Assembly: GCA_030602265.1 (NCBI GenBank)
Contig: JAUWAB010000038.1
Span: forward strand, 1-38,943
Direction of reading: 5' to 3'
DNA length: 38,943 nucleotides
Source of the DNA: Prolixibacteraceae bacterium
Lineage (GTDB): Bacteria; Bacteroidota; Bacteroidia; Bacteroidales; Prolixibacteraceae
Positions 3,128-15,591 of the stretch are shown here, piece after piece (within the stretch, counting starts at the first letter, position 1; every line of letters starts with the position of its first letter). Made by a program: the position numbers and the translations under genes. The notes below the pieces were generated by a model, which did no database searches, had not been told where the DNA came from, and worked only from the letters and a program-made list of their open reading frames with translations.

Positions 3128-3829
3128 TCACCCCTTGAAACTGATCATTTCCAGTCTGGGATAGTCAAGGATTTCAATAGTATCATTATGAACATTTATC
3201 AAACCGTCATTTTTAAATTTGGTCAGACTGCGTGCCACACTTTCAATGGTCATACCGGTAAGTTCTGCCAAATCCTTCCGGGATAATTGCAGGGAAAAGC
3301 AGTTGGATTTATAAATACGGTTCGACAGACAAAGGAGTACGTCAGCAAAGCGGCCATATGTTTGTTTTTTTGTCAGACAGAAAAACCTTCCGCTAACGAT
3401 GATCATTTGTTCAGCCAATAATGCTACCAGTTTGCTGGCAAATATGGAGTTGGAAGCCATAAGCTGTTTTATGGCATTGATTTCAATCATACTCAGTCTG
3501 GAATCGATATATGCCTGCGCTGAACTAAACCTCATCTGGTTGCCTTCGCACAGTGAAGAAAGGCCAATGATGGTTACAGGGGAAAATATCTGAAGAATAA
3601 GATTCTCACCTATTCCTTCAATATAAGTTTTTATCAAACCCTCCTGCAGAACCATAATATTCCCGGCAAATGATCCCTGTTTAAAAACCACTTCACCTTT
3701 GCTATAGTATACATCAGCCATTCTGGTATAGAGAAAATCAAGCTCATCAGGGGTTAGCATACTGAAACAATCAGACTTATTAAACTCAAGAGCACAACTG
3801 CTTCTAACTACTTTCTGAGTTTGTATCAT
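3128..3829 (-). CDS. Crp/Fnr family transcriptional regulator
   Basis: A 233-residue cytoplasmic protein with the two-domain Crp/Fnr layout. Residues about 25-125 form a cyclic-nucleotide-binding-like beta-roll (KGEVVFKQGSFAGNIMVLQEG). A dimerisation helix follows, and a winged helix-turn-helix covers about 180-215 (LSRKDLAELTGMTIESVARS). The recognition helix keeps the Glu-x-x-x-Arg pair (E196 and R200) that in Crp and Fnr contacts TGA half-sites; the Ser of Fnr is Ala here. The N-terminal region has Cys12 and Cys21 but not the full Cys spacing of the Fnr iron-sulfur cluster, so the signal sensed is unknown. The gene is divergent from the octaheme cytochrome cluster, with several TTGAT half-sites between them, so it is the likely regulator of that cluster. 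Confidence 0.88.
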   Translation of the reverse strand: MIQTQKVVRSSCALEFNKSDCFSMLTPDELDFLYTRMADVYYSKGEVVFKQGSFAGNIMVLQEGLIKTYIEGIGENLILQIFSPVTIIGLSSLCEGNQMRFSSAQAYIDSRLSMIEINAIKQLMASNSIFASKLVALLAEQMIIVSGRFFCLTKKQTYGRFADVLLCLSNRIYKSNCFSLQLSRKDLAELTGMTIESVARSLTKFKNDGLINVHNDTIEILDYPRLEMISFKG

Positions 3830-3882
3830 TTCTTCATCGTTTATTTTCTAGGTTGGAAAATCATGATAAAAATAACAAATTT

Positions 3883-3935
3883 TTGATCTTTCCAAATCAA
3901 ATGATTATTTGATTTTCCAGGCATCAGTCCTTGAT
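3883..3935. promoter_or_regulatory. Candidate Crp/Fnr operator region with perfect palindrome
   Basis: Within 53 bases there are four TTGAT half-sites: 3883-3887, 3896-3900 on the other strand, 3909-3913 and 3931-3935. A perfect inverted repeat with 9-base arms, AAATCAAAT at 3894-3902 and ATTTGATTT at 3907-3915, is separated by four bases. The region lies between the divergent Crp/Fnr gene and the octaheme cytochrome gene. TTGAT is the Fnr half-site, but the spacing here (8 bases between the facing half-sites) differs from the E. coli N4 spacing, so binding by the neighbouring regulator is inferred. The region is very AT-rich, which raises the chance of accidental dyads. A possible -7 element TAATTTTG is at 3977-3984. 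Confidence 0.45.
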
Positions 3936-4052
3936 TTCGAAACCACACCAAATCAGGACAGGCTTCCACCATTTAATAATTTTGAACCGTCTGATAGTTC
4001 AATCTTTAATCCCGGAATTTACCGGGAGTGTAAAAACCGAAACTTATTCGAA

Positions 4053-5651
4053 ATGAAGAATTTTATTGAAAAACCTGTTACTCTTTTTCTGGTCCTGGTA
4101 ATGCCGCTGGTGGTATTATACTTCACCATACGCACAGGGCTCCACAAGGATGAAGTCAAACCTCTGGAATATGCAACCAGGGCAACCATTCCTGCCAAGG
4201 TTGATCACGCACAGTTTGCCATTCTTCAACAGGAATTCGTTAATCCGAGGGATGTTACAGCGGCATGTCTTTCATGTCACAATCAGCGCGATGATGAATT
4301 AATGGTCAGTTCGCACTGGACATGGGAAAGGGAAGCTGATATCCCCGGCAGGGGCAAAGTGACTATCGGCAAGAAAAACCTGCACAACAATTTTTGTACA
4401 GCCGCAGAAGGGAATAATGGATCGTGCATGCGTTGCCATATAGGTTATGGCTGGGCAGACAAATCCTTTGACTTTAATGACCCTAACAATATTGACTGCC
4501 TGGTTTGTCATGACAAAACAGATACCTATAAAAAGATAAAGGGAGGAGCCGGATGGCCTGCAACGGCAGAAAACGCAACCAAGGAGTTTCCTGTTCCGGA
4601 CTACAATTTTGTTGCACAGAACGTAGGGTTTCCCGACCGCGATAATTGCGGAGTATGTCATTTTTATGGCGGTGGGGGAAACAATGTAAAGCATGGCGAT
4701 CTCGAGGAAGCCTTGTTCAGTACCACCAGGAACATTGATGTACACATGGGTACCGATGGCCCAAATATGGCATGCGTCGACTGTCATAAGACAGAACGCC
4801 ACAATATTAAAGGTCGCGCATATTCGGTTTCTTCTGAAAATACCAACCGGGTAAGCTGTGAAAACTGTCACGGCGATGCACCACATAACGATATTGTCCT
4901 TGACCGCCACAACCACAAGCTGGCCTGCCAGACCTGTCATATACCGGTATATGCCAAAGTCAACGGCACCGTCATGTACTGGGACTGGTCCAAGGCCGGA
5001 AGAAGGGATGATAACGGAAATCCCATAACAGAATATGATGCCGATCACAATTACAGTTACCTTTCCATCAAAGGTAAATTCGTTTACGACAATATGGTTA
5101 AGCCTGATTATAAATGGTTTAACGGAACCGCCGATCATTTTCTCAACGAAGACACCATCTCAAGCGAACCAGTACAGATCAACACCCTGTTCGGGAGCTA
5201 TTCCGACCCGGATGCCAAAATCTGGCCGGTCAAAATCCACAGGGGCAAACAACCATATGATCCGGTACTTAAGCACCTGCTTTCTGTAAAACTATATGCC
5301 AAAGGTAAAGGAGAAGACGCCTTTTGGGAAGACCTGGACTGGGATTCGGCAATCAGGGCAGGTATGGAATACAATGAACGGGAATGGAGCGGGGAATATG
5401 ACTTTATTTCCACCGAAGTTTACTGGCCATTAAACCATATGGTTAGTCCGAAAGAAGAGACCCTGACCTGTACGGACTGCCATACCAGGAGTGAGAAAGG
5501 CCGGCTTGCCTCACTGCGCGATTTCTACCTGCCAGGACGCGACTATGCCAGGGCAGCAGACTATAGCGGGATAGGTATCATCCTGTTATCATTAGTCGGA
5601 ATTATAGGACACGCAGCAATGCGCATCATCGCTTTCATAAGAAACAAATAA
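4053..5651 (+). CDS. Membrane-anchored octaheme c-type cytochrome, tetrathionate reductase family
   Basis: A 532-residue multihaem cytochrome. Eight CXXCH haem-binding motifs are read, with the first Cys at residues 72, 125, 149, 199, 241, 269, 292 and 473. The block KKNLHNNFC followed by CMRCHIGYGW (about 107-135) is characteristic of the octaheme tetrathionate reductase (OTR) family, in which one haem carries a Lys ligand and forms the active site. OTR of Shewanella reduces tetrathionate and also nitrite and hydroxylamine in vitro, so the natural substrate is uncertain. A hydrophobic helix lies near each end (about 11-27 and 506-527), so the haem domain would sit in the periplasm anchored at both ends. 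I chose the ATG at 4053 because upstream codons (from a TTG at 3909) overlap the operator region and lack family features. Next gene: a membrane cytochrome b, the likely electron donor from the quinol pool. Confidence 0.88.
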   Translation: MKNFIEKPVTLFLVLVMPLVVLYFTIRTGLHKDEVKPLEYATRATIPAKVDHAQFAILQQEFVNPRDVTAACLSCHNQRDDELMVSSHWTWEREADIPGRGKVTIGKKNLHNNFCTAAEGNNGSCMRCHIGYGWADKSFDFNDPNNIDCLVCHDKTDTYKKIKGGAGWPATAENATKEFPVPDYNFVAQNVGFPDRDNCGVCHFYGGGGNNVKHGDLEEALFSTTRNIDVHMGTDGPNMACVDCHKTERHNIKGRAYSVSSENTNRVSCENCHGDAPHNDIVLDRHNHKLACQTCHIPVYAKVNGTVMYWDWSKAGRRDDNGNPITEYDADHNYSYLSIKGKFVYDNMVKPDYKWFNGTADHFLNEDTISSEPVQINTLFGSYSDPDAKIWPVKIHRGKQPYDPVLKHLLSVKLYAKGKGEDAFWEDLDWDSAIRAGMEYNEREWSGEYDFISTEVYWPLNHMVSPKEETLTCTDCHTRSEKGRLASLRDFYLPGRDYARAADYSGIGIILLSLVGIIGHAAMRIIAFIRNK

Positions 5652-5747
5652 ACCTGAGAGTTTCCATAGTTGAAGATACACTAAACAGTATAAAAAGTTC
5701 AAAACTGGAAGTTCCATTTCACCAATTAAAACAAGGCAAAATTATAT

Positions 5748-6368
5748 ATGAGAAAGACAAGAATATTTACACGATTTGAGCGCTTCTGGCACTGGACACA
5801 AATGGCGCTTGTTTTGCTGCTGACCTTAACCGGATTTGAGATTCACGGAAACTACGAAATGTTTGGATACGAAAACTCAGTCAGGATGCACAACTCCTCT
5901 GCATGGACTTTCATCGGGCTTGGTGTGATCTCCATTTTTTACATGATAATTTCCCGGTTGTACAAAAACTTCATACCCACCCGGAATAATCTTAAAGAGC
6001 AGATACTTTACTATACATCAGGTATCTTTAAAAATGAAACGCACCTCACGACAAAAACGCTGTACAACAAGCTCAACCCTTTGCAAAGGATAGTTTACGG
6101 CGGTTTGCTCATTATTGTATTCCCGGTACAGATTCTCACCGGACTGATTTATCTGTATTATCATTACCCGCAAAATCCTGTTGACGTTGCCGGCCTGAGA
6201 ATCGCTGCCGTAGCGCACACGCTCGGGGCTTTCCTGATGGTAGCTTTTATACTGGTACATATCTATATGACAACAACCGGCGAAAAAATTACCACCAACA
6301 TCAGATCCATGATTACCGGATTTGAAGAAAACCAGGAATCTGAAATTATTGAAGATAAAAAACAATAA
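5748..6368 (+). CDS. Di-haem cytochrome b (cytochrome b561 / FdnI-like membrane subunit)
   Basis: A 206-residue inner-membrane protein with four hydrophobic helices (about 17-31, 52-69, 115-135 and 152-174). The N-terminal motif RFERFWHWTQ (His15) and later His48, His157 and His171 match the haem-ligand pattern of the cytochrome b subunits of formate dehydrogenase-N, hydrogenases and related quinol-linked complexes. Such subunits exchange electrons between menaquinone and a periplasmic redox partner. It lies 96 bases after the octaheme cytochrome gene and 13 bases before the rhodanese lipoprotein gene, so it most likely passes electrons from quinol to the octaheme protein. The charged C-terminus (EENQESEIIEDKKQ) should face the cytoplasm. 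The family call is firm; the partner assignment is inferred from gene order. Confidence 0.82.
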   Translation: MRKTRIFTRFERFWHWTQMALVLLLTLTGFEIHGNYEMFGYENSVRMHNSSAWTFIGLGVISIFYMIISRLYKNFIPTRNNLKEQILYYTSGIFKNETHLTTKTLYNKLNPLQRIVYGGLLIIVFPVQILTGLIYLYYHYPQNPVDVAGLRIAAVAHTLGAFLMVAFILVHIYMTTTGEKITTNIRSMITGFEENQESEIIEDKKQ

Positions 6369-6381
6369 AAAATTGCATCAT

Positions 6382-6888
6382 ATGAGAAAACTGATAGTCT
6401 ATTTGCTGGCCTGCATTTTAATGGTTTCCTGCAACTCGGGAAAAGAATTTGAAAATGCCGACGAAATGGTAAACCTTGCTCTTAAGAGCGTTAAACTAAT
6501 TTCTCCCGAACAATTGGAAGAGCTTATGAAAGGGGAAGAAATCTACACCCTGGTGGATGTCAGGCAAGAAGTTGAACACTACTATGGGTATATTCCCGGA
6601 TCTGTGGTAATTCCAAGAGGAAGTCTTGAATTCAATATAGGTGATGATGAATTCTGGGACCATGTAGGGCTTTATAAACCCGAAAAGAATGAAAAAATCA
6701 TTGTTTACTGCAAAAAAGGGCAGCGGGGGATTCTGGCTGCTGAAACCCTTACAAAGCTGGGATATACGAATGTGTTAGCCCTTGATGGCGGCTGGAAAGC
6801 GTGGGAAGTCAAATATCCCGACATTTTTGAAAAAGATCTCGACAAACTCGGCGGCGGCGGTGCATCTGCCCCAACCGGAGGATGTTGA
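6382..6888 (+). CDS. Single-domain rhodanese lipoprotein with Gly-rich C-terminal Cys tail
   Basis: A 168-residue exported protein. Residues 1-16 form a lipoprotein signal with lipidation Cys17 (LMVSC). The rhodanese domain covers about 40-145: LVDVRQEVEHYYGYIPGS is the N-terminal landmark, and the active-site loop CKKGQRG has the catalytic Cys110 that carries persulfide sulfur. LDGGWKAW closes the fold. The last 12 residues are GGGGASAPTGGC, a flexible tail whose final residue is Cys168. This is unusual for a plain rhodanese and recalls the C-terminal Cys arm of the sulfur carrier SoxY (GGCGG), although no SoxY domain is present. I moved the start to the ATG at 6382, because it opens a proper lipoprotein signal and follows the cytochrome b stop by 13 bases; the longer frame would overlap that gene. 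Confidence 0.85.
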   Translation: MRKLIVYLLACILMVSCNSGKEFENADEMVNLALKSVKLISPEQLEELMKGEEIYTLVDVRQEVEHYYGYIPGSVVIPRGSLEFNIGDDEFWDHVGLYKPEKNEKIIVYCKKGQRGILAAETLTKLGYTNVLALDGGWKAWEVKYPDIFEKDLDKLGGGGASAPTGGC

Positions 6889-6926
6889 TCCTGAATATTA
6901 TCATTAACATTTAAAACCTTGAAAAA

Positions 6927-7871
6927 ATGAAAAAACTATCACTCTATCTGCTAATTCTCTTCTTAATACCTACTTTCTTGCTTACAGGTTGTAAAGAAGA
7001 CAACGAAGTTGAATTTGACGGGCAAAAGGCACTTACAGAATACCTTGTGGCGCAGAATCTCGACCTCAACAAAATTCTGGAAAACTTTGTGGTTGACTCC
7101 AGGCTTACCGGCGACGTAAGCAGTTTCTATATTCTCGACATACGTACTGCCGCTGAATATGCACAGGGACGTATTGCAGGATCAACCAGGATTGACTTTG
7201 CCAACCTGCTGACTGAAGCAGCCAAAGCAACTAAACCCATTCTGGTAGTGTGCAAAACCGGTCAAACTGCAACCTTTGCCGTTTCACTGCTCCGTCTGTC
7301 GGGTTATGATGCCAAAGCGCTGAAATGGGGTATGGCCGGATGGAATAAAGATCTGGATACCTGGACCCCGAATATTGGGAATATTTCAGTCGGGCACGCA
7401 AACTGGAATAAAGAAGCCGCTCCTGCCAATGTAACCAATTTAGCTCCGAAATTTACAAGCACAGATACAAATCCGGCCAATATCCTGAAAGCCAGAGTAG
7501 CAGCTGTAGTTGCAGAAGGATTTAAATCTGTCACTCCCGAAGATGTACTGAGCAATCCAGGCAACTACTTCATAAACAACTACTTCCCGGAAGCTGATTA
7601 TCTGAATTTCGGTCACATAAAAGGTGCTTACCGTATACAGCCCATGCTTGTAGGTGCAGGTCAGGTCAACTTCCTGGATCCAAAGAAAAAAATTGTAACC
7701 TATTGCTATACCGGTCAGACTTCGGGAGCGATTACCGCCTATCTCCGTGTATTGGGATATGATGCAGTTAGTATGCTCTGGGGAATGAACAAGTTGCATA
7801 ATGCCAGCACTGCCTGGACTTCAAACAAATGGGCTGCCGACATGGCCAAATCAAATCCTGTATCAAAATAA
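6927..7871 (+). CDS. Double rhodanese-domain lipoprotein
   Basis: A 314-residue exported lipoprotein with signal residues 1-21 and lipidation Cys22 (LLTGC). Two rhodanese-like domains are visible. The first (about 60-145) has LDIRTAAEYAQGRIAGS and an active loop CKTGQTA with Cys109. The second (about 195-295) has GHIKGAYRI and an active loop CYTGQTS with Cys260. Both Cys residues are kept and the two loops share the pattern CxTGQT, so an internal duplication with two working sites is likely. This differs from classical tandem thiosulfate sulfurtransferases, where only the C-terminal domain has the Cys. Its job is probably to accept or pass sulfane sulfur in the periplasm next to the octaheme cytochrome. 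The porin gene follows after only 8 bases. Confidence 0.85.
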   Translation: MKKLSLYLLILFLIPTFLLTGCKEDNEVEFDGQKALTEYLVAQNLDLNKILENFVVDSRLTGDVSSFYILDIRTAAEYAQGRIAGSTRIDFANLLTEAAKATKPILVVCKTGQTATFAVSLLRLSGYDAKALKWGMAGWNKDLDTWTPNIGNISVGHANWNKEAAPANVTNLAPKFTSTDTNPANILKARVAAVVAEGFKSVTPEDVLSNPGNYFINNYFPEADYLNFGHIKGAYRIQPMLVGAGQVNFLDPKKKIVTYCYTGQTSGAITAYLRVLGYDAVSMLWGMNKLHNASTAWTSNKWAADMAKSNPVSK

Positions 7872-7879
7872 TAAAAAGA

Positions 7880-8890
7880 ATGAGAAAAATAGTTATTGCC
7901 TTATTATTGATTTTGGGAACCGGCTCTGCCCGGCTTATGGCGCAGGGTTGCGGGACACCAGCTTCTGATGACGCACTTAAAGTATTCGGATTTTTGCAGT
8001 CGCAGTACGAATACTCTTTCGAAAATCAGCCAAAAAGCAGTTTCTCCTTCGAAAGGGCAAGGATCGGTGTAATGGGGTCCATCCCTTACGATTTTTCCTA
8101 CTATGTGGTAATGGAACTAAGTCCGTTTATTGCACCAAATCCATATCTCCTGGATGCTTTCATAACTTATGGCAGATTTAACTGGGCACGCGTATCGGCA
8201 GGGTCGTTCAAAACTCCCTTCGGACTGGAAACAAACACAGCGTGTAACAACATGCTGACAGTTTATCGTTCCACTTCTACCCTTCAAATGGTTGCTCCGT
8301 TCAGAGACCTTGGGCTTGTGTTCATGGGAGGCGACGAAACAACACGCTTGTCCTATCAGCTTGGCATCATGAACGGCAGTGGTTTGGGAAGGGCCGACAA
8401 CAACAAAATGAAAGATATCGTTGGCCGCATTCTGCTTAAACCTGTTGATTTTATTAAAGTCGGAGGTAGTTTCAGAACCGGATACCCATCCTACAACAAC
8501 AACGAAGATTCAAGAACGTCGCTTGCCGGGGAATTGCAGGCAAACTACAAAGGATTTACCTTACAGGCCGAATACCTGACCGACAAAGGCGACTACAACC
8601 GCGATCTTGGCGGCGGATGCAGCGGAAACCTCATCGACCTCGGGGAGAAGCGTAGCGGGGGTTTTGCCACCCTGGCCTATTTAACCAAATGGAATGTAGA
8701 ACCCGTTTTCAGGTTCGATTTCTTTGACTCAGGAAACGACAGGGGTTATAAAGAGAACAACATGACTTACGGTATCAACTACTATTTCAATGACTGGACC
8801 CGATTGCAGGTAAACTACATCTACAGAGCAGAGAAGCCAACTGAAGTCAAAAATGATGAACTTGTCCTGCAACTTCAGGTTAAATTTTAA
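7880..8890 (+). CDS. Outer-membrane porin, OprP/OprO-like
   Basis: A 336-residue protein with a signal peptide (about 1-22, ending LMAQG). The mature part is a beta-barrel: repeated amphipathic strands, FGFLQSQYEYSFE near the start, then FSFERARIGVMG and a stretch around WARVSAGSFKTPFGLE that is typical of phosphate-selective porin O/P family barrels of Bacteroidota. It ends LQLQVKF, with the C-terminal Phe usual for outer-membrane barrels. It presumably lets an anion cross the outer membrane, and by context that may be tetrathionate, thiosulfate or a similar sulfur oxyanion. I took the ATG at 7880 rather than the one at 7829, because it begins the signal peptide and lies 8 bases after the previous stop. 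Confidence 0.82.
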   Translation: MRKIVIALLLILGTGSARLMAQGCGTPASDDALKVFGFLQSQYEYSFENQPKSSFSFERARIGVMGSIPYDFSYYVVMELSPFIAPNPYLLDAFITYGRFNWARVSAGSFKTPFGLETNTACNNMLTVYRSTSTLQMVAPFRDLGLVFMGGDETTRLSYQLGIMNGSGLGRADNNKMKDIVGRILLKPVDFIKVGGSFRTGYPSYNNNEDSRTSLAGELQANYKGFTLQAEYLTDKGDYNRDLGGGCSGNLIDLGEKRSGGFATLAYLTKWNVEPVFRFDFFDSGNDRGYKENNMTYGINYYFNDWTRLQVNYIYRAEKPTEVKNDELVLQLQVKF

Positions 8891-8902
8891 TACTTACTGA
8901 AA

Positions 8903-9754
8903 ATGAGAAGATTACTTACCACATTTACTGCAATCATACTTGCAGCAATATTTTCAACCTTAACAGCGCAGGTTTTGATTTCGGCAAACGATCTGGCTGC
9001 CCAGGCAAAAAATCCGGATTACATTGTTGTTTCAGCTGAACTCGACTCTGAATATGCCAAAGTACATATCACCAACTCTGTAAATGTATCCTATAAGGCT
9101 TTTTATAAACCCGGGAACATTGAAGGGCTGATGGTATCTGATGCTGAAATTGCCAAAATCCTGGGTGATGCCGGAATTTCAGAAGGTAAAACCGTGGTGG
9201 TTTATGATGAGGGCGGCGGCAGATACGCAGGCAGGGTTTACTGGATCCTGAAATACATGGGTGTTGCCAATGCCAAAATTTTGGATGGCGGACTGGAGGC
9301 ATGGAAAGCCGGAAGAAAACCGGTTACCAAAAACCCGACCAATATCACCAAAGCAACCTTTAACGGTAAGCCCAACAAAGCAATGTTGGCCTCCATCGAT
9401 GAAGTGAAGGCTGCGGCAGGAAAGAGCCAGATTGTCCTGGTCGATTTGCGCGAAGCTGCAGAACATAAAGGCCAGGCCAACCAGAGCAAAGGCTTTATCC
9501 CTGGCTCAGTCAATGTTGACCATACAACCCTTCTCGATGCAAAAGGTTTATATAAACCCAAGGCAGACCTCGAAAAAATCTTTGCTGCACAGGGTGTCAC
9601 CAAGGACAAGACCATCATTCTCTATTGCGGCTCTGGAGTTCGCACCGGAAAGGGATATGTTGCACTGGTGAACATCATGGGTTATACCAACGTCAAAGTT
9701 TACGACGGGGGATATAATGAGTGGGTGGCTCTGAATAATGCCGTTACAAAATAA
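8903..9754 (+). CDS. Exported tandem-domain sulfurtransferase (thiosulfate/3-mercaptopyruvate type)
   Basis: A 283-residue protein with a signal peptide (about 1-22, ending LTAQV), so it should act in the periplasm. The layout is the classical two-domain sulfurtransferase. The N-terminal domain (about 25-140) has YDEGGGRYAGR where the active loop would be, with no Cys, as usual for the inactive half. The C-terminal domain (about 160-280) has LVDLREAAEHKG and the active loop CGSGVRTG with Cys242. These enzymes move sulfane sulfur from thiosulfate or mercaptopyruvate to a thiol acceptor or cyanide. A loop of the form CGSGVRT does not settle whether thiosulfate or mercaptopyruvate is used. It is the last gene of the octaheme cluster, 12 bases after the porin, and is followed by a strong inverted repeat. 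Confidence 0.87.
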   Translation: MRRLLTTFTAIILAAIFSTLTAQVLISANDLAAQAKNPDYIVVSAELDSEYAKVHITNSVNVSYKAFYKPGNIEGLMVSDAEIAKILGDAGISEGKTVVVYDEGGGRYAGRVYWILKYMGVANAKILDGGLEAWKAGRKPVTKNPTNITKATFNGKPNKAMLASIDEVKAAAGKSQIVLVDLREAAEHKGQANQSKGFIPGSVNVDHTTLLDAKGLYKPKADLEKIFAAQGVTKDKTIILYCGSGVRTGKGYVALVNIMGYTNVKVYDGGYNEWVALNNAVTK

Positions 9755-9816: not shown

Positions 9817-10995
9817 TCACAGTTCAATAGCCCTCAACTCAGCCAAAGACAGCCCAAGATCCCTTTTGGCCTCCAGCAGTTTATCCATCGTGCTGTAATA
9901 GTATTCCAGTTCCAGAAGATAGGTCAAAAGGGAAATTTCTCCGCCATGCAGGGCTTTCCGCAACAAATCTTCGTTACTGTATGTCGAAAGCGCATCAAGA
10001 TAACCATCGACATTTAGCTGCAGACTTCTGGATTGCTCATACATACTTTGCAGCTTGCCATAAATCCTGATTTTAGTATCTTCCAGCACTGCACCGGTAG
10101 CTCTCACCTGCATTTCTGCCTGTTTTACCCTGTTTTTGTTTTCCCACAAAGGGACCGACACCCCCATGGTTATCCCCTGGAATTTCTCACTGCCAACTCG
10201 TTCGCTCATATATCCGGCAGAAAACCTGGGAAGCCCTAATGCGCTGTTCAGTTTTACCTGATATTGCCCCACTTCCATCTGCCCCATTAAATGTTGCAGC
10301 AGAGGACTGCTCATCTCCACCGACGCATACCAGTCATCGAAATCTGCTGGTAACGGCTCGCCGAACATCTCTGATTCCGTAAAATCTATTTCCTTTCCCC
10401 CGTTTAAAGCCTTCAACTCCGATAAAAGGGATGATCGTTCCGTTTCAATCCGTTGGATGTCACTGCTTAAAACTGAAAGGTTAAGCTGAGCCTTGTTGAA
10501 CTCCAGGATACCCGTATCCCCCTTCTCAAACCTTTGCTTATAGGCATCGGCAATGCGACGGGCATTTATCAGCCTGCCGGAATATTCCTTCAACAGTGCA
10601 TTGTAATATACCAGCTCGATACAGGTCTGTTTGGCCAGCACCAACAGATTGATGCGCTCTGACTGGTATATCAGTCCGGCATTGGAGTTTTCCAATTTGG
10701 CAATTTTGCTTCTGTAACCATACACCGTCGGGAAATCAAAAGTCTGTGTAACACGGATGTCGTTTCTATTCCCTATCCGGGAAGGGCTCCCCCAGAGGTA
10801 ATTAAACTCTACCTCCGGATCTTGCAGGTATATTCCTGTCAGGTTATTCAGCTTCCGGGCTTCTGTCTGCTCACGTAATGCGTGCAGGGCAGTGTTGTTG
10901 GATTCGATTTCCTTCAGTACTGATTCTATCGCGGATTGTGCCCATACAGGAAATGCGATTGCCACAAGCAATATACTAACGAATAGCCTCTTCAT
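9817..10995 (-). CDS. TolC family outer-membrane efflux protein
   Basis: A 392-residue exported protein with a signal peptide MKRLFVSILLVAIAFPVWAQ. The mature chain has the alternating long amphipathic helices of TolC/CzcC/CusC proteins, for instance the repeats around LLVLAKQTCIELVYYNALL and LLRKALHGGEISLLTYLLELEYYYS. These proteins form the outer-membrane exit duct of RND efflux systems. The ATG at 10995 was chosen because it starts the signal peptide; the longer frame would add 15 residues without features. This start lies 20 bases inside the pump gene, so the two are translationally coupled. It is the last gene of the metal efflux operon. Confidence 0.87.
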   Translation of the reverse strand: MKRLFVSILLVAIAFPVWAQSAIESVLKEIESNNTALHALREQTEARKLNNLTGIYLQDPEVEFNYLWGSPSRIGNRNDIRVTQTFDFPTVYGYRSKIAKLENSNAGLIYQSERINLLVLAKQTCIELVYYNALLKEYSGRLINARRIADAYKQRFEKGDTGILEFNKAQLNLSVLSSDIQRIETERSSLLSELKALNGGKEIDFTESEMFGEPLPADFDDWYASVEMSSPLLQHLMGQMEVGQYQVKLNSALGLPRFSAGYMSERVGSEKFQGITMGVSVPLWENKNRVKQAEMQVRATGAVLEDTKIRIYGKLQSMYEQSRSLQLNVDGYLDALSTYSNEDLLRKALHGGEISLLTYLLELEYYYSTMDKLLEAKRDLGLSLAELRAIEL

Positions 10996-13900
10996 TTTTG
11001 TGTCTTCTTTTTTGTAATAACTCATACACAACCGGAACAATATAAATATTGAGCAGGGTGGAAGTCAACAACCCGCCCAGCACCACAACCGCCATCGGAC
11101 TTTGTATCTCATTTCCTGGCTTATCGCCGTTAACAACCAGAGGGATAAGGGCCAGCGCCGCGGTCAGGGCGGTCATCAGAATAGGATTAAGCCTGTCCAT
11201 GGAGCCCTGGAGTACCGTTTCACGCAAGGTATTGCCTGCCTGCTGCATCTGCTGGTATTTGGATATCAGGAGGATTCCATTGCGGGTAGCTATTCCGAAC
11301 AGGGTAATGAAACCGATAACCGAAGGGATGCTCACCACTCCGGAGGAGAGGTAAACCGCAAGTACCCCTCCAATCAGGGCTAATGGAAGGTTCAGCAGGA
11401 CAATGGCCGAAAGCGTCAGATTGCGGAACTCGCCGAAGAGCAGCAGAAAAATAACAAGGATGGCCATTACAGAAGTGACCAGCAAGGTTTGTGAGGCTCT
11501 TTGCGCACTTTCAAACTGTCCGCCGTATTCCACCCTGTACCCTTCCGGAAGGTTTATTTCATCATTAATTTTTTTCTTAATATCATCCACCACCCCTTTT
11601 AAATCACGGCCCGACACGTTTGCCGAAACAACCATTTTCCGCTGTACATTTTCACGGCTTATAGTGTTGGGCCCGCCCACAGATACAATTTCAGCAATTT
11701 CCTCCAGGGGAATTTTCCCGCCTGCTCCGGTATCAATCAGGGCAGACTTAACCTGTTCGATGCTTTCGGTGTAATTCCTGTTCAGTCGTAAAACCAAATC
11801 AAACCTGCGTTGCCCTTCATAAATATCGGACAGCTTCTCCCCTGCAAATGCCAGTTCGATAAACTTATTGAAATCTTCGACCGTAATACCGTGCCGGGCG
11901 AGCATTCCCCTATTGGCACGAACCTGCAGCTGAGGCGTTTCGGTCTGCTGGTCTACTGTAATGTCGACCAGGCCTTCGATTCCCTCAATGGCATGTTGGA
12001 TCTGGTTTCCAAGAATAAACATTTGTCCGAGATCGGTTCCAAATAATTTGATGGCGATATTCGCCCGGGTTCCGGAGAGCATATGATCTATCCGGTGCCC
12101 CAGTGGCTGTCCGATTGTAAATGCCATTCCGGGGACTCCTGCCAGTTTGTTTCGCACATCGGCCAGAAATTCATCCCTGTCCCGGCCAGATAAACTGAAA
12201 TTGACATCTAACTCCGCGGAGTTGCTGGGCTGAGCGTGCTCATCCAGCTCACCCCGGCCGGTACGTCTGGCGGTTCCGGTAACTTCAGGTATTTTCAGCA
12301 GTTCTTCCTCCATCAGGTTCCCCAGCCGGGCATTCTCCTCCAGTGAAACCCCAGGCTTTGTTACCGCTGAAATTACCAGTGAACCTTCGTTGAATTCAGG
12401 CAGGAAGCTCTTGCCCATGGTAAAAAACAGGGCAAGAGTGATCAGAAAAATGGTGAACGCCGGATACAACACTTTATTTCTGTTGGAGAGAACCCAGTTT
12501 AATGATTTACTGTAGAATGCTGAAAGATTCCGGGTTAGCCAGCTGGTTTTATCTTTTCTGTCCAGATATTTATCACTGGAAAGCATCATCCGGCATAGCA
12601 GCGGTGTAACCGACATGGCCACCAGCAATGACATGAACAGGGAAACAATATAGGCAACGCCTAAAGGTTTCAGCATTCGTCCTTCCATTCCGGAAAGAAA
12701 GAAAAGCGGAACAAAAGCCACAATTATAATCAGGGTGGCATTGAGGATAGACGCCCGGATCTCCCTGGATGCCTCAAATACAACCTTGAAGTCGGACTGG
12801 CGTTCCTCTTTCGGCAACTTGTGATTTTGGCGCAATCGTTTATACACATTCTCCACATCAATAATGGCATCATCTACCAGCGAACCAATGGCTATGCACA
12901 TTCCTCCGAGGGTCATGGTATTAATATTCATCCCCAGGAAATAGAGAATGATAACGGAACCCAACAGGGATAACGGGATGGCAATCACCGATATGACGGT
13001 AGTGCGGAAGCTTCCTAAAAACAGGAAGAGGATAATCACCACGAACAAGGCTCCTTCGATTAATGCCCAACCGACATTCCTTACCGAAGCCTCAATAAAA
13101 TCGGCCTGCCGGAATATCCGTGTATCCATTTTTACATCGGGTGGCAGGGTTTTCTGCAAATCTGCCAGATTCAGCTCAATATTCCTGGTTACATTCAGTG
13201 TGTTGATATTGGGCTGCTTGGAGACAGCCAGAATTACTGCCGGTGAAGCATTCTGGGAGGCGTCTCCCATTCTGACCGCACTTCCGATAATCACTTCTGC
13301 CACGTCGGAAAGCACTACCGGATTTCCATTTACGACTTTTAATACCGTTGACCCAAGCTCACCCAGATCGGTAGTTCTGGCCATCCCGCGAAGAACATAT
13401 TCATTGCCGAAGTCGCGGATTACGCCTCCTGCGGAGTTGGCACTGAATGTCCTTCCGGTTTCTTCCAGCAGGCTCATGGTAACACCATACACATTCATCC
13501 TTTGCGGATCGGCAAGGATCTGGTACTGTTTGTAATCCCCACCGATGATGGTGACCTGCGATACACCGCCGGTGGCCAGGATCGAAGGCTTTACAACCCA
13601 TTCGGCAATGGTCCTGACCTCCATCATGGAGGTGGAATCGGATTGAAGCCCGATTAACAGGATTTCGCCCATTACACTGGATTGCGGGGCAAGTACGGGA
13701 GTCACCCCGACGGGTAGTGACCCGCCAAGCGTAACCATTTTTTCGCTCACAATCTGGCGGGCCTTGAAGATGTCCGTTCCCCAGTCAAACTCTACCCACA
13801 CGAAAGAAAAGCCCTGAAGGGATGCCGACCGCACCCTGCGAACGTCGGTAGCACCATTTACGGCCGTTTCAACCGGGAAAGTCACCAGCCTTTCCACTTC

Positions 13901-14077
13901 CTCCGAAGCCATGCCATGCGCATCTGACATTACCACCACGGTAGGGGCCGTCAGGTCGGGGAATACATCAATATCCATCTTCCCCGCCAGATAGATTCCC
14001 CCTGCAACCAACAGTACAACTCCCAGCAACACAAAGAGTTTATTGCCGAGAGAAAACTCAATTATCCTGTTTAGCAT
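10976..14077 (-). CDS. CusA/CzcA family heavy-metal RND efflux pump
   Basis: A 1033-residue inner-membrane transporter, full length for the HME-RND family. It begins MLNRIIEFSLGNKLFVLLGV, the usual N-terminal helix, and shows the two-fold repeat of a large periplasmic loop followed by a six-helix bundle. In helix 4 the proton-relay segment reads SLVDDAIIDVEN (about 399-410) with Asp402, Asp403 and Glu409. It uses the proton gradient to export metal cations from the periplasm or cytoplasm through the adaptor and TolC. This relay lacks the DFG start of CzcA and is closer to CusA-like or mixed members, so whether it moves Cu/Ag or Zn/Co/Ni/Cd cannot be decided. The very His-rich partner proteins favour Zn, Ni or Co, as an inference. 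Confidence 0.9.
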   Translation of the reverse strand: MLNRIIEFSLGNKLFVLLGVVLLVAGGIYLAGKMDIDVFPDLTAPTVVVMSDAHGMASEEVERLVTFPVETAVNGATDVRRVRSASLQGFSFVWVEFDWGTDIFKARQIVSEKMVTLGGSLPVGVTPVLAPQSSVMGEILLIGLQSDSTSMMEVRTIAEWVVKPSILATGGVSQVTIIGGDYKQYQILADPQRMNVYGVTMSLLEETGRTFSANSAGGVIRDFGNEYVLRGMARTTDLGELGSTVLKVVNGNPVVLSDVAEVIIGSAVRMGDASQNASPAVILAVSKQPNINTLNVTRNIELNLADLQKTLPPDVKMDTRIFRQADFIEASVRNVGWALIEGALFVVIILFLFLGSFRTTVISVIAIPLSLLGSVIILYFLGMNINTMTLGGMCIAIGSLVDDAIIDVENVYKRLRQNHKLPKEERQSDFKVVFEASREIRASILNATLIIIVAFVPLFFLSGMEGRMLKPLGVAYIVSLFMSLLVAMSVTPLLCRMMLSSDKYLDRKDKTSWLTRNLSAFYSKSLNWVLSNRNKVLYPAFTIFLITLALFFTMGKSFLPEFNEGSLVISAVTKPGVSLEENARLGNLMEEELLKIPEVTGTARRTGRGELDEHAQPSNSAELDVNFSLSGRDRDEFLADVRNKLAGVPGMAFTIGQPLGHRIDHMLSGTRANIAIKLFGTDLGQMFILGNQIQHAIEGIEGLVDITVDQQTETPQLQVRANRGMLARHGITVEDFNKFIELAFAGEKLSDIYEGQRRFDLVLRLNRNYTESIEQVKSALIDTGAGGKIPLEEIAEIVSVGGPNTISRENVQRKMVVSANVSGRDLKGVVDDIKKKINDEINLPEGYRVEYGGQFESAQRASQTLLVTSVMAILVIFLLLFGEFRNLTLSAIVLLNLPLALIGGVLAVYLSSGVVSIPSVIGFITLFGIATRNGILLISKYQQMQQAGNTLRETVLQGSMDRLNPILMTALTAALALIPLVVNGDKPGNEIQSPMAVVVLGGLLTSTLLNIYIVPVVYELLQKRRHKNEEAIR

Positions 14078-14088
14078 TTTTTTTTGGT

Positions 14089-15591
14089 TTAATGGGCATG
14101 CCCGTGTGTATCCAGCTGACCAGCAACCTGTGCCAGTTTTACCAATATGGCACCCTTGCTCACCACACGCTCCGATGGTGCAAGTCCCTCCTTGATTTCG
14201 ATGCGGGATCCATCTGTTTTTCCGGTAAATACAGGGCGTTTCTCAAAATATTCGGGCGTAATCTGAACAAAAACAAAAAATGCCCCCATCTCTTCAACGA
14301 CAGACTCCCGGGTAACCGTAATGGCATGCTCGCCGCCTTGCAAACTGATATACATTTCAACAAAACTCCCGGGCAGCAGTCCGGCATTATTCTGTACCTG
14401 AAGGAAAAGCGGAATAAGCGGATTCTGCAGATCAACAGATTTTCCATACGAAACCACCCGGCCCTTCAAATCCTCCAGGGTATAGGTTGTGTTCCTGTTC
14501 AACACCCTGATGGTTGCAGTGCTTATGGTCGCCAATGCATCCGCATATTTTGGCTGAATATCGGCCCTGATCAAAAGGTCGTGGTTCCGGGATACAACCA
14601 GAAGAGGCTGGCCGGCCGCCACATATTCACCGTTGCGGACCAGCACCTGTTTCACAAATCCATCCATTGGAGAAGTGACCGACTGCTTCCCTGCTGAGAA
14701 ATTTCTCTGCAGAAGATTAAAGCTGGCTTCAGCCTGCCTGAATGCTGTTTCGGCTTCCAGGAGGTCCCTTTCTGAAACAATCCGGTCTTTGGCCAGTTCC
14801 TTTTTCCGGTCATAATCTGCCTGCGCCCTGTTAAACTCAGCTGCTGCCTCCTCATAACGGACACCCAGATTATTATCTGCAAGGTCACCGCTTTCAATGG
14901 TGAGCAGTAACTGCCTGCCGTTGACCGCCTGTCCGCCAACAACTCCATTCCCTGAAAATGAAATCAAACCACCAGCTTTAGCCACCACCACTTTCTCATC
15001 CCCCTGGGCTGGTTGTATTTGCCCAATGGTTCTGATTATCTGGCCAAAGGGCGCAAAACGGACCTCTTCTGTGGCGAAATCTACCTTCCAGCTTTGTTCC
15101 TTGGTAAATACGACGCCATTAGGGACCGACACAACGGCAACCGCGGCATCGTGCTGGGCATCATGTTCATTTTCGAAAATTTTAACGCGGGGAACGACAA
15201 GTTGGGAATGGCCATCAGAAGAATGTATGTCGAAGATTAATTTACCAGTCCCCATGGTTAAAGGCTTCAGTGAAAACTGAAATATGCCGTCCCTGACAGG
15301 ATTCTCCACACTCTGACGAATGCCTTCGGTACCCACGATCAGACTTACTGTGATTTTTCCCTCTTTTAAAGGCTTGAAGTCCTCAAGCCGGGTAAAATGG
15401 GCCAGAATATCACTGGGCTGTCCGACTACAAAAGGAGCTGCCTCGGCAAATACCTCAAATTCATTGTTGTATGCCGTGAGCCGCAGGCTTTCGTCATGTT
15501 CGTGTTCCCCGGATGAACTTTCGGGAGTTGGGACACAAGCTATCCAGGTAATTGCCGTCAGCAATACCCAAACCAGATTATTTGATTTCAT
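14089..15591 (-). CDS. RND efflux periplasmic adaptor (CusB/HlyD family), lipoprotein
   Basis: A 500-residue adaptor that joins the inner-membrane pump to TolC. The N-terminus is a lipoprotein signal with Cys19 (TWIAC), then a short acidic His-rich stretch (GEHEHDE). Residues about 200-330 contain the lipoyl-like half-motifs and the alpha-hairpin (AAEFNRAQADYDRKKELAKD, then MDGFVKQVLVRNGEYVAAGQ). Later residues form the beta-barrel and membrane-proximal domains. The C-terminus ends LDTHGHAH, a small His cluster that could bind metal ions, as metal-binding adaptors of this family do. It lies 11 bases after the small His-rich lipoprotein gene and 11 bases before the pump gene, so the genes form one operon. 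Confidence 0.88.
   Translation of the reverse strand: MKSNNLVWVLLTAITWIACVPTPESSSGEHEHDESLRLTAYNNEFEVFAEAAPFVVGQPSDILAHFTRLEDFKPLKEGKITVSLIVGTEGIRQSVENPVRDGIFQFSLKPLTMGTGKLIFDIHSSDGHSQLVVPRVKIFENEHDAQHDAAVAVVSVPNGVVFTKEQSWKVDFATEEVRFAPFGQIIRTIGQIQPAQGDEKVVVAKAGGLISFSGNGVVGGQAVNGRQLLLTIESGDLADNNLGVRYEEAAAEFNRAQADYDRKKELAKDRIVSERDLLEAETAFRQAEASFNLLQRNFSAGKQSVTSPMDGFVKQVLVRNGEYVAAGQPLLVVSRNHDLLIRADIQPKYADALATISTATIRVLNRNTTYTLEDLKGRVVSYGKSVDLQNPLIPLFLQVQNNAGLLPGSFVEMYISLQGGEHAITVTRESVVEEMGAFFVFVQITPEYFEKRPVFTGKTDGSRIEIKEGLAPSERVVSKGAILVKLAQVAGQLDTHGHAH

Follow-up and report, generated by a model that had tools for sequence, protein, structure and literature searches.

Precedents for the locus described here combine proteins that handle sulfane sulfur with a reductase or a transporter. 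Sud delivers polysulfide sulfur to the reductase Psr (PMC2754497), and in Dethiobacter a SirA/Otr-like octaheme cytochrome is clustered with rhodaneses and is up-regulated on thiosulfate (PMC10376724). YeeE/YedE proteins are transporters for thiosulfate (PMC11582611). In a sulfur disproportionator, a porin stands beside periplasmic sulfurtransferases and YeeE/YedE, a set for which the import of polysulfide has been proposed (PMC12142623). The octaheme cytochrome OTR of Shewanella reduces tetrathionate (PMC4484225); papers differ on what OTR reduces physiologically, the candidates being nitrite, hydroxylamine and tetrathionate (PMC4484225, PMC6896113, PMC5276818, PMC8528874). The subject of this analysis is an operon of six same-strand open reading frames, at 4053-9754, that combines an OTR with a cytochrome b, three rhodaneses and a porin. 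It lies in a stretch of 38,943 nucleotides (positions 1 to 38,943 of contig JAUWAB010000038.1, here called the window) from the 4.41 Mb draft genome of a Prolixibacteraceae bacterium (GCA_030602265.1).

On balance, we take this operon to encode a menaquinol-fed periplasmic sulfur reductase that carries its own sulfur-handling relay, a reading in which we infer both the substrate and the relay. Its six genes are these.

4053..5651, plus strand: octaheme cytochrome c of the OTR family, with an N-terminal signal anchor and a C-terminal transmembrane helix that holds a conserved His520
5748..6368, plus strand: b561-type cytochrome b (Ni_hydr_CYTB; like formate dehydrogenase-N gamma and PhsC), the predicted menaquinol oxidase partner
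6382..6888, plus strand: RHO1, a single-domain rhodanese lipoprotein with a flexible C-terminal arm that ends in Gly-Gly-Cys (codons 6877-6885)
6927..7871, plus strand: RHO2, a double-rhodanese lipoprotein with KED after the lipid Cys
7880..8890, plus strand: Porin_O_P outer-membrane porin, with a 16-stranded model, OprP as its best PDB fold match, and three invariant Cys
8903..9754, plus strand: RHO3, an exported tandem rhodanese whose N-domain has no Cys at the catalytic site and whose C-domain carries CGSGVR

A sequence-only reading had described six same-strand genes in one unit, the first of them an OTR, with four rhodanese active cysteines on exported proteins. These claims held up. All six open reading frames are in place, and the four catalytic cysteines were found by eye in RHO1 (CKKGQR), in RHO2 (CKTGQT and CYTGQT) and in the C-domain of RHO3; the lipoboxes and the signal peptide of the window proteins were likewise read by eye. 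The octaheme protein scores 577.5 bits against TIGR04315, where the cut-off is 375, and matches PF11783 (E 1e-63) and PDB 1sp3 (E 5e-124).

For comparison, OTR neighbourhoods were gathered from genomes of the window's own order and of its phylum, together with 80 named loci, so that every above-cut-off match outside the source genome was covered. OTR matches occur in 75 of the 295 genomes of the order, the source genome included, and the phylum-level search delivered 67 other matching genomes, all labelled as being of the same phylum only. With duplicates removed and the window included, there are 195 distinct OTRs (order 68, phylum 58, named 79). The nearest named relatives of the window's OTR, in metagenome-assembled genomes labelled Bacteroidales or Bacteroidetes, are 70-73% identical over the best segment.

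The eight CXXCH motifs of the window's OTR are invariant in 101 of 101 aligned OTRs. Lys213 (Lys153 of 1sp3; codon 4689-4691) and Cys115 (Cys64 of 1sp3; codon 4395-4397) are each invariant in all 195; in the crystal structure, they are the Lys ligand and a Cys at the active-site heme. Membership of the NrfA family was rejected, the protein having no CXXCK and scoring 22.4 bits against PF02335 (Cytochrom_C552), where 24.1 is needed. In a tree of the 101 OTRs, neighbourhood types cluster, requiring 12 changes against 46.5 when shuffled; the window's OTR sits there on a long branch and finds no firm placement.

A further pattern concerns the membrane. A cytochrome b gene lies within 500 bp of the OTR gene in 171 of the 195 loci (order 61/68, phylum 45/58, named 74/79), and each of those 171 OTRs has a C-terminal transmembrane helix. 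None of the 16 helix-less OTRs has an adjacent cytochrome b; the other eight have the helix with no adjacent cytochrome b detected. His520, which lies in the helix, is conserved in 179 of the 195 OTRs. The strongest argument that the two proteins would work as one membrane-bound quinol-to-octaheme unit is this co-variation of helix and cytochrome b. The window's cytochrome b itself matches PF01292 (E 9e-26). Its His15, 48 and 99 are kept in 167 of 167 sequences, and its His157 and 171 in 166 of 167 (here, as in the window-order and PsrA counts below, loci present in both genome collections are included). It does not belong to PhsC, the cytochrome b of thiosulfate reductase, scoring 77.7 bits against the 204 that the equivalog demands.

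Some OTR operons fuse cytochrome b561 to one or two PAS domains (L063, 6577-7737; L066, 6428-7756), and a quinol-linked sensor is conceivable there; the window's cytochrome b has no PAS domain. Three other loci (L106, L110, L112) combine an OTR that lacks an adjacent cytochrome b with YedE genes and a nine-heme protein of 628 residues. L110, the one of the three that was scanned, has a weak cytochrome b561 match.

The genes that surround OTR point to sulfur. A rhodanese or YeeE/YedE gene lies within 5 kb of OTR in 147 of the 195 loci (order 48/68, phylum 35/58, named 72/79). The last 26 matches to be added brought this share from 138/169 to 147/195, with 20 of the 26 having no rhodanese within 5 kb. 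Both a cytochrome b and a rhodanese or YedE gene are found in 135 of the 195, and a porin in 15. The exact order of the window (OTR, cytochrome b, RHO1, RHO2, porin, RHO3) recurs in 10 of the 80 named loci (L161, L162, L163, L165, L166, L167, L170, L171, L174 and L185), and the isolate Marinilabiliaceae bacterium N1Y90 is among the carriers. A lack of conserved gene order in related genomes, which the sequence-only reading had named as grounds for giving up its proposal, is thus not what is seen. Chance clustering is ruled out by this conserved order together with the fact that five of the seven rhodanese-domain matches (PF00581) in the whole source genome fall within RHO1, RHO2 and RHO3.

The commonest arrangement around OTR is different: OTR, cytochrome b and two half YeeE/YedE transporters, the second of which is fused to a rhodanese (PF04143, PF00581). 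Two relatives from the window's own genus (L061, L062) carry this YedE type in place of the window type, so that even among close relatives one version can stand where the other does. Carboxylicivirga linearis and Mariniphaga anaerophila are named isolates of the YedE type. A Psr-type catalytic gene (PsrA) lies near OTR in 9 of 181 stretches.

The Gly-Gly-Cys (GGC) end of RHO1 is invariant in 21 of 21 aligned homologues, of which 20 keep the catalytic Cys. In the structural model of RHO1, the last 11 residues (158-168) have a predicted local distance difference test score (pLDDT) below 50. An exact GGC end is found in 156 of the 233 distinct complete rhodanese or YedE-B proteins of OTR loci, and a GGC within the last seven residues in 182. 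Among the other distinct open reading frames of these loci (at least 150 amino acids), 2 of 2,198 end in this way, both lying directly after a YedE-rhodanese gene. As a control, 29 rhodaneses were taken, one per relative, from relatives not chosen for OTR; six carry the tail. Five of those six lie beside YedE halves, against none of the 23 untailed ones. No SoxY domain (PF13501) is seen in RHO1, where a Pfam scan at E 0.1 shows the rhodanese domain alone. A SoxY search of the source genome gave no match, but control genomes were equally silent, making this a weak search.

The tail and the signal for export to the surface divide between different rhodaneses. The signal K-(D/E)2 directs surface export in Bacteroidetes (PMC5080379), and the KED of the window's RHO2 fits it. 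Double rhodaneses that adjoin a porin have the GGC tail in 0 of 36 and K[DEK][DE] in 22 of 36; where no porin adjoins, 32 of 36 carry the tail and 1 of 36 carries K[DEK][DE]. Lipoproteins of the RHO1 type have the tail in 40 of 44 and the surface signal in none of 44. Across the 70 double-rhodanese lipoproteins, the wider K[DEK][DE] is found in 23 (p = 2e-6) and a still looser pattern in 30 (p = 1.3e-9), both patterns having been set after the sequences were viewed, so that these p values are descriptive. Such a division would suit a rhodanese at the surface and GGC carriers in the periplasm, the location of each being predicted.

The porin has cysteines at positions 24 (7949-7951), 122 (8243-8245) and 247, the last within GGGC (8618-8620). 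Each of the 36 cassette porins carries all three. Of 15 weaker homologues, none has a cysteine at any of these positions; they come from 15 of the 27 genomes of the window's own order in which weaker homologues were matched. The model, of 16 strands, has a mean pLDDT of 71.8, and its best PDB match, OprP, is an anion porin. Confidence is low at all three cysteines; for this reason, no distances between them are claimed.

Rhodaneses and porin are not, however, tied to OTR. Among the 295 genomes of the order, a porin search gave E below 1e-50 in 38. In eight of the 38, counting the source genome and a case with a distance of about 12 kb, an OTR match lies on the same contig; in the other 30 it does not, the genomes being drafts. 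Twenty such cassette porin stretches were examined for partners. An OTR was found in one (L311), Psr genes in three (PsrABC directly downstream of the cassette in L305, and nearby in L315 and L316), a YedE gene in seven (L304, L310, L312, L317-L320), and no recognised partner within the stretch in nine. The rhodanese-porin-rhodanese set is a separable, portable cassette, and not a set of OTR-specific subunits, because Psr/Phs reductases and YedE-Hdr genes are found next to it as well.

Four of these stretches (L304, L310, L318, L320) share the order YedE, RHO1, RHO2, porin, RHO3, RHO1, with more genes beyond. Of the four, L310 was scanned, and its genes beyond the cluster are DsrE2, FlpD and HdrA-like genes. 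The cluster in the four looks like a sulfur-oxidation or transfer route.

How, then, might the window's operon work? The b561-type cytochrome b would oxidise menaquinol and pass electrons on to the octaheme protein, itself anchored in the membrane; there, the heme with the Lys ligand would reduce a compound with a sulfur-sulfur bond. The likeliest reaction would be that of tetrathionate to thiosulfate; polysulfide or a protein-bound thiosulfonate are possible substrates as well. RHO2 at the surface, the thiol-bearing anion-type porin, soluble RHO3 and the GGC-armed lipoprotein RHO1 would capture sulfane sulfur outside the cell and bring it in, keeping it as a protein persulfide that could be handed to the reductase or taken away from it. 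Tetrathionate is favoured because the Shewanella OTR reduces it, because thiosulfate, the product, is what rhodaneses and YedE handle, and because, in an acidobacterium given tetrathionate, otr transcription was 36-fold up by day 8 (PMC8528874).

A bolder reading, which we think rather doubtful, takes the cassette as an unnamed portable sulfur relay of Bacteroidota. Here, a surface rhodanese, a three-Cys porin and SoxY-like GGC-armed rhodaneses would take up sulfane sulfur outside the cell and hand it on covalently, from one thiol to the next, over the outer membrane to interchangeable partners, namely OTR, Psr/Phs or YedE plus Hdr. This would be a reductive counterpart to the Sox carrier, with the sulfur never free in the periplasm.

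Several observations weigh against the view of the operon as a sulfur reductase with a relay. In 48 of the 195 loci, no rhodanese or YedE gene lies within 5 kb of OTR on the same strand, some of these loci being at contig ends. One family of 13 loci (L121-L123 and L339-L348) has only OTR and cytochrome b within that distance; either its sulfur partners are encoded elsewhere or OTR there serves another acceptor. The GGC tail is missing from the window's own RHO2 and RHO3, and one further relative of RHO1 (L192) ends in AGC. With the strict K-(D/E)2 signal, the contrast by porin is weaker (11 of the 70 double-rhodanese lipoproteins, p = 0.019, relatedness not being controlled). The Asp150 of the Shewanella protein, which sits beside the active site, is Asn210 in the window; Asn is found here in 158 of 195 OTRs and Asp in 21. 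This replacement is not taken to exclude the protein from the family, because most OTRs that meet TIGR04315 share the Asn. From the literature, the day 1 response of the acidobacterium's otr to tetrathionate was 1.8-fold and not significant (PMC8528874). Caldithrix has Otr, yet growth tests did not support its predicted tetrathionate respiration (PMC5317091). The Shewanella OTR also reduces nitrite and hydroxylamine (PMC4484225).

Some further information comes from the regulatory region and from the rest of the genome. Next to the operon are a divergent regulator gene and a palindrome.

3128..3829, minus strand: Crp/Fnr-family regulator (HTH_Crp_2 and cNMP_binding)
3897..3912, no strand assigned: palindrome TCAAATGATTATTTGA in the divergent promoter region, a possible operator for a Crp/Fnr-family protein

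Cys12, near the N-terminus of the regulator, is invariant in 28 of 28 divergent homologues. An exact FNR-type motif (TTGATN4ATCAA) is found in 10 of 28 equivalent divergent regions (3830-4052 of the window and 27 homologous ones), against 0.04 expected. It is absent from the window's own divergent region, the palindrome not being an exact copy of it. The source genome has, on another contig, an operon of the Phs/Psr type, behind which lie two YedE halves and a rhodanese with a GGC tail; the PhsA model gives that operon 437 bits, below its cut-off of 694. The genome also has a canonical NrfA-family gene (588 bits), and a search of it for DsrA gave no match. Within the window, convergent with the operon on the minus strand at 9817-15591, are three RND-efflux-like genes, named by eye as an outer-membrane factor, a 1033-residue pump and a 500-residue fusion protein.

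These facts bear on the other explanations. The OTR may be a nitrite or hydroxylamine reductase for ammonification, with the rhodaneses serving something else. The activities of the Shewanella enzyme (PMC4484225) and the nitrite role proposed in genome papers (PMC6896113; PMC5276818) suit this, as do the 48 loci with no sulfur genes near OTR and an Fnr-type regulator, which would suit any anaerobic respiration. Such a role would, however, be redundant with the NrfA-family gene of the same genome, which makes nitrite less likely, and, cytochrome b apart, it is YedE, rhodaneses and in some cases Psr that keep turning up with OTR. We consider this explanation unlikely. About as unlikely is that the unit runs in an oxidative or disproportionating direction, oxidising sulfane sulfur or thiosulfate and passing the electrons into menaquinone. 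The potential of menaquinone lies well below +198 mV. The tetrathionate/thiosulfate couple is at +198 mV (PMC8528874), so its reduction would be downhill with respect to menaquinone. In favour of oxidation, the cassette is also found with YedE, DsrE2 and HdrA-like genes, resembling the YeeE-rhodanese-DsrE-sHdr route of Hyphomicrobium (PMC11582611), and the porin, sulfurtransferase and YeeE set proposed to import polysulfide belongs to a disproportionator (PMC12142623). Since no DsrA was found in the source genome, Dsr-based disproportionation is unlikely there.

Rhodaneses are promiscuous enzymes, and the cassette exists without OTR; both make it conceivable that the rhodaneses of the operon serve detoxification or sulfur assimilation in general and only happen to adjoin a reductase. 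Against this stand the repeated physical linkage to respiratory reductases, the order conserved in 10 of 80 named loci, and the prediction, made by eye, that all four cassette proteins are exported; we judge it very improbable. The least probable explanation is a unit for the reduction of selenite, tellurite or metal, like extHIJKLMNOPQS of Geobacter. The window's porin and RHO3 do give weak scores to ExtI and ExtH, but membership was rejected at 37.8 bits against 150 and 72.8 against 200, far below the cut-offs. Neither a Rieske gene nor any of the set of cytochrome genes that ext has is found in the operon, and the neighbours in related loci are sulfur transporters and Psr.

The preferred reading, that of a menaquinol-fed sulfur reductase, thus keeps the outline of what the sequence-only reading had proposed, and supports it in part. 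Quinol-fed sulfur reduction with rhodanese partners remains the best reading, given a conserved unit, an anchor that travels with the cytochrome b in 171 of 171 and sulfur genes in 147 of 195 loci; the substrate is unproven. Its placing of rhodaneses and porin within the OTR unit stands for the conserved order, not for the separable cassette or for the 48 loci without rhodanese or YedE. Its suggestion of disproportionation, given the search that found no DsrA, is not favoured in this genome, at least by the Dsr route. The GGC tail and the three-Cys porin it missed. Four points are new: rhodaneses with GGC arms, a porin with conserved cysteines, an anchor that co-varies with cytochrome b, and a cassette that is portable. 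Open-licence PMC papers, to which the literature search was confined, showed no description of the operon, of GGC-tailed rhodaneses or of such a porin.

That OTR lies among sulfur genes in three quarters of the loci examined points to sulfur for the window's clade, and named isolates with the gene set are available for testing the substrate of OTR. If the reading is correct, the GGC arm and Cys porin would extend protein-bound sulfur carriage of the SoxY type to anaerobic respiration and to outer-membrane transport, and would offer a sequence marker for sulfur-respiring Bacteroidota in metagenomes.

It remains to set the window beside the systems already described. In the ext cluster of Geobacter sulfurreducens, a rhodanese, a cytochrome b and multiheme cytochromes likewise occur together with a porin that resembles phosphate porins (PMC5877670); the window has other cytochromes, sub-threshold similarity and other neighbours. 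The set of Desulfurivibrio dismutans, too, places a porin beside periplasmic sulfurtransferases and YeeE/YedE with polysulfide import proposed, but is discussed with Psr and Dsr rather than OTR (PMC12142623); the likeness to the window is one of gene types. In its octaheme protein, the window resembles Shewanella oneidensis OTR (1sp3, TIGR04315), sharing the profile match, the eight CXXCH, the Lys ligand and the active-site Cys. The Shewanella protein is soluble, whereas the window's clade has a C-terminal transmembrane anchor, a dedicated cytochrome b561, rhodanese partners and Asn in place of Asp150. In its logic, the window is like Wolinella Sud-Psr, where a rhodanese of the periplasm is proposed to supply a quinol-fed reductase with sulfane sulfur; PDB 1qxn, presumably Sud, is matched by RHO1 with E 2e-4. 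Here, however, the reductase is an octaheme cytochrome with no molybdoenzyme partner in the operon, and the window adds lipoproteins, a GGC arm, a predicted surface rhodanese and a Cys porin. The arm, in turn, recalls SoxYZ with its C-terminal Gly-Gly-Cys, and both single rhodaneses of the L310 cassette end exactly in GGCGG, the ending whose cysteine in SoxY binds sulfur substrates (PMC6067878). Unlike that of SoxYZ, the arm in the window is borne by a rhodanese domain, and its proposed use is reductive.

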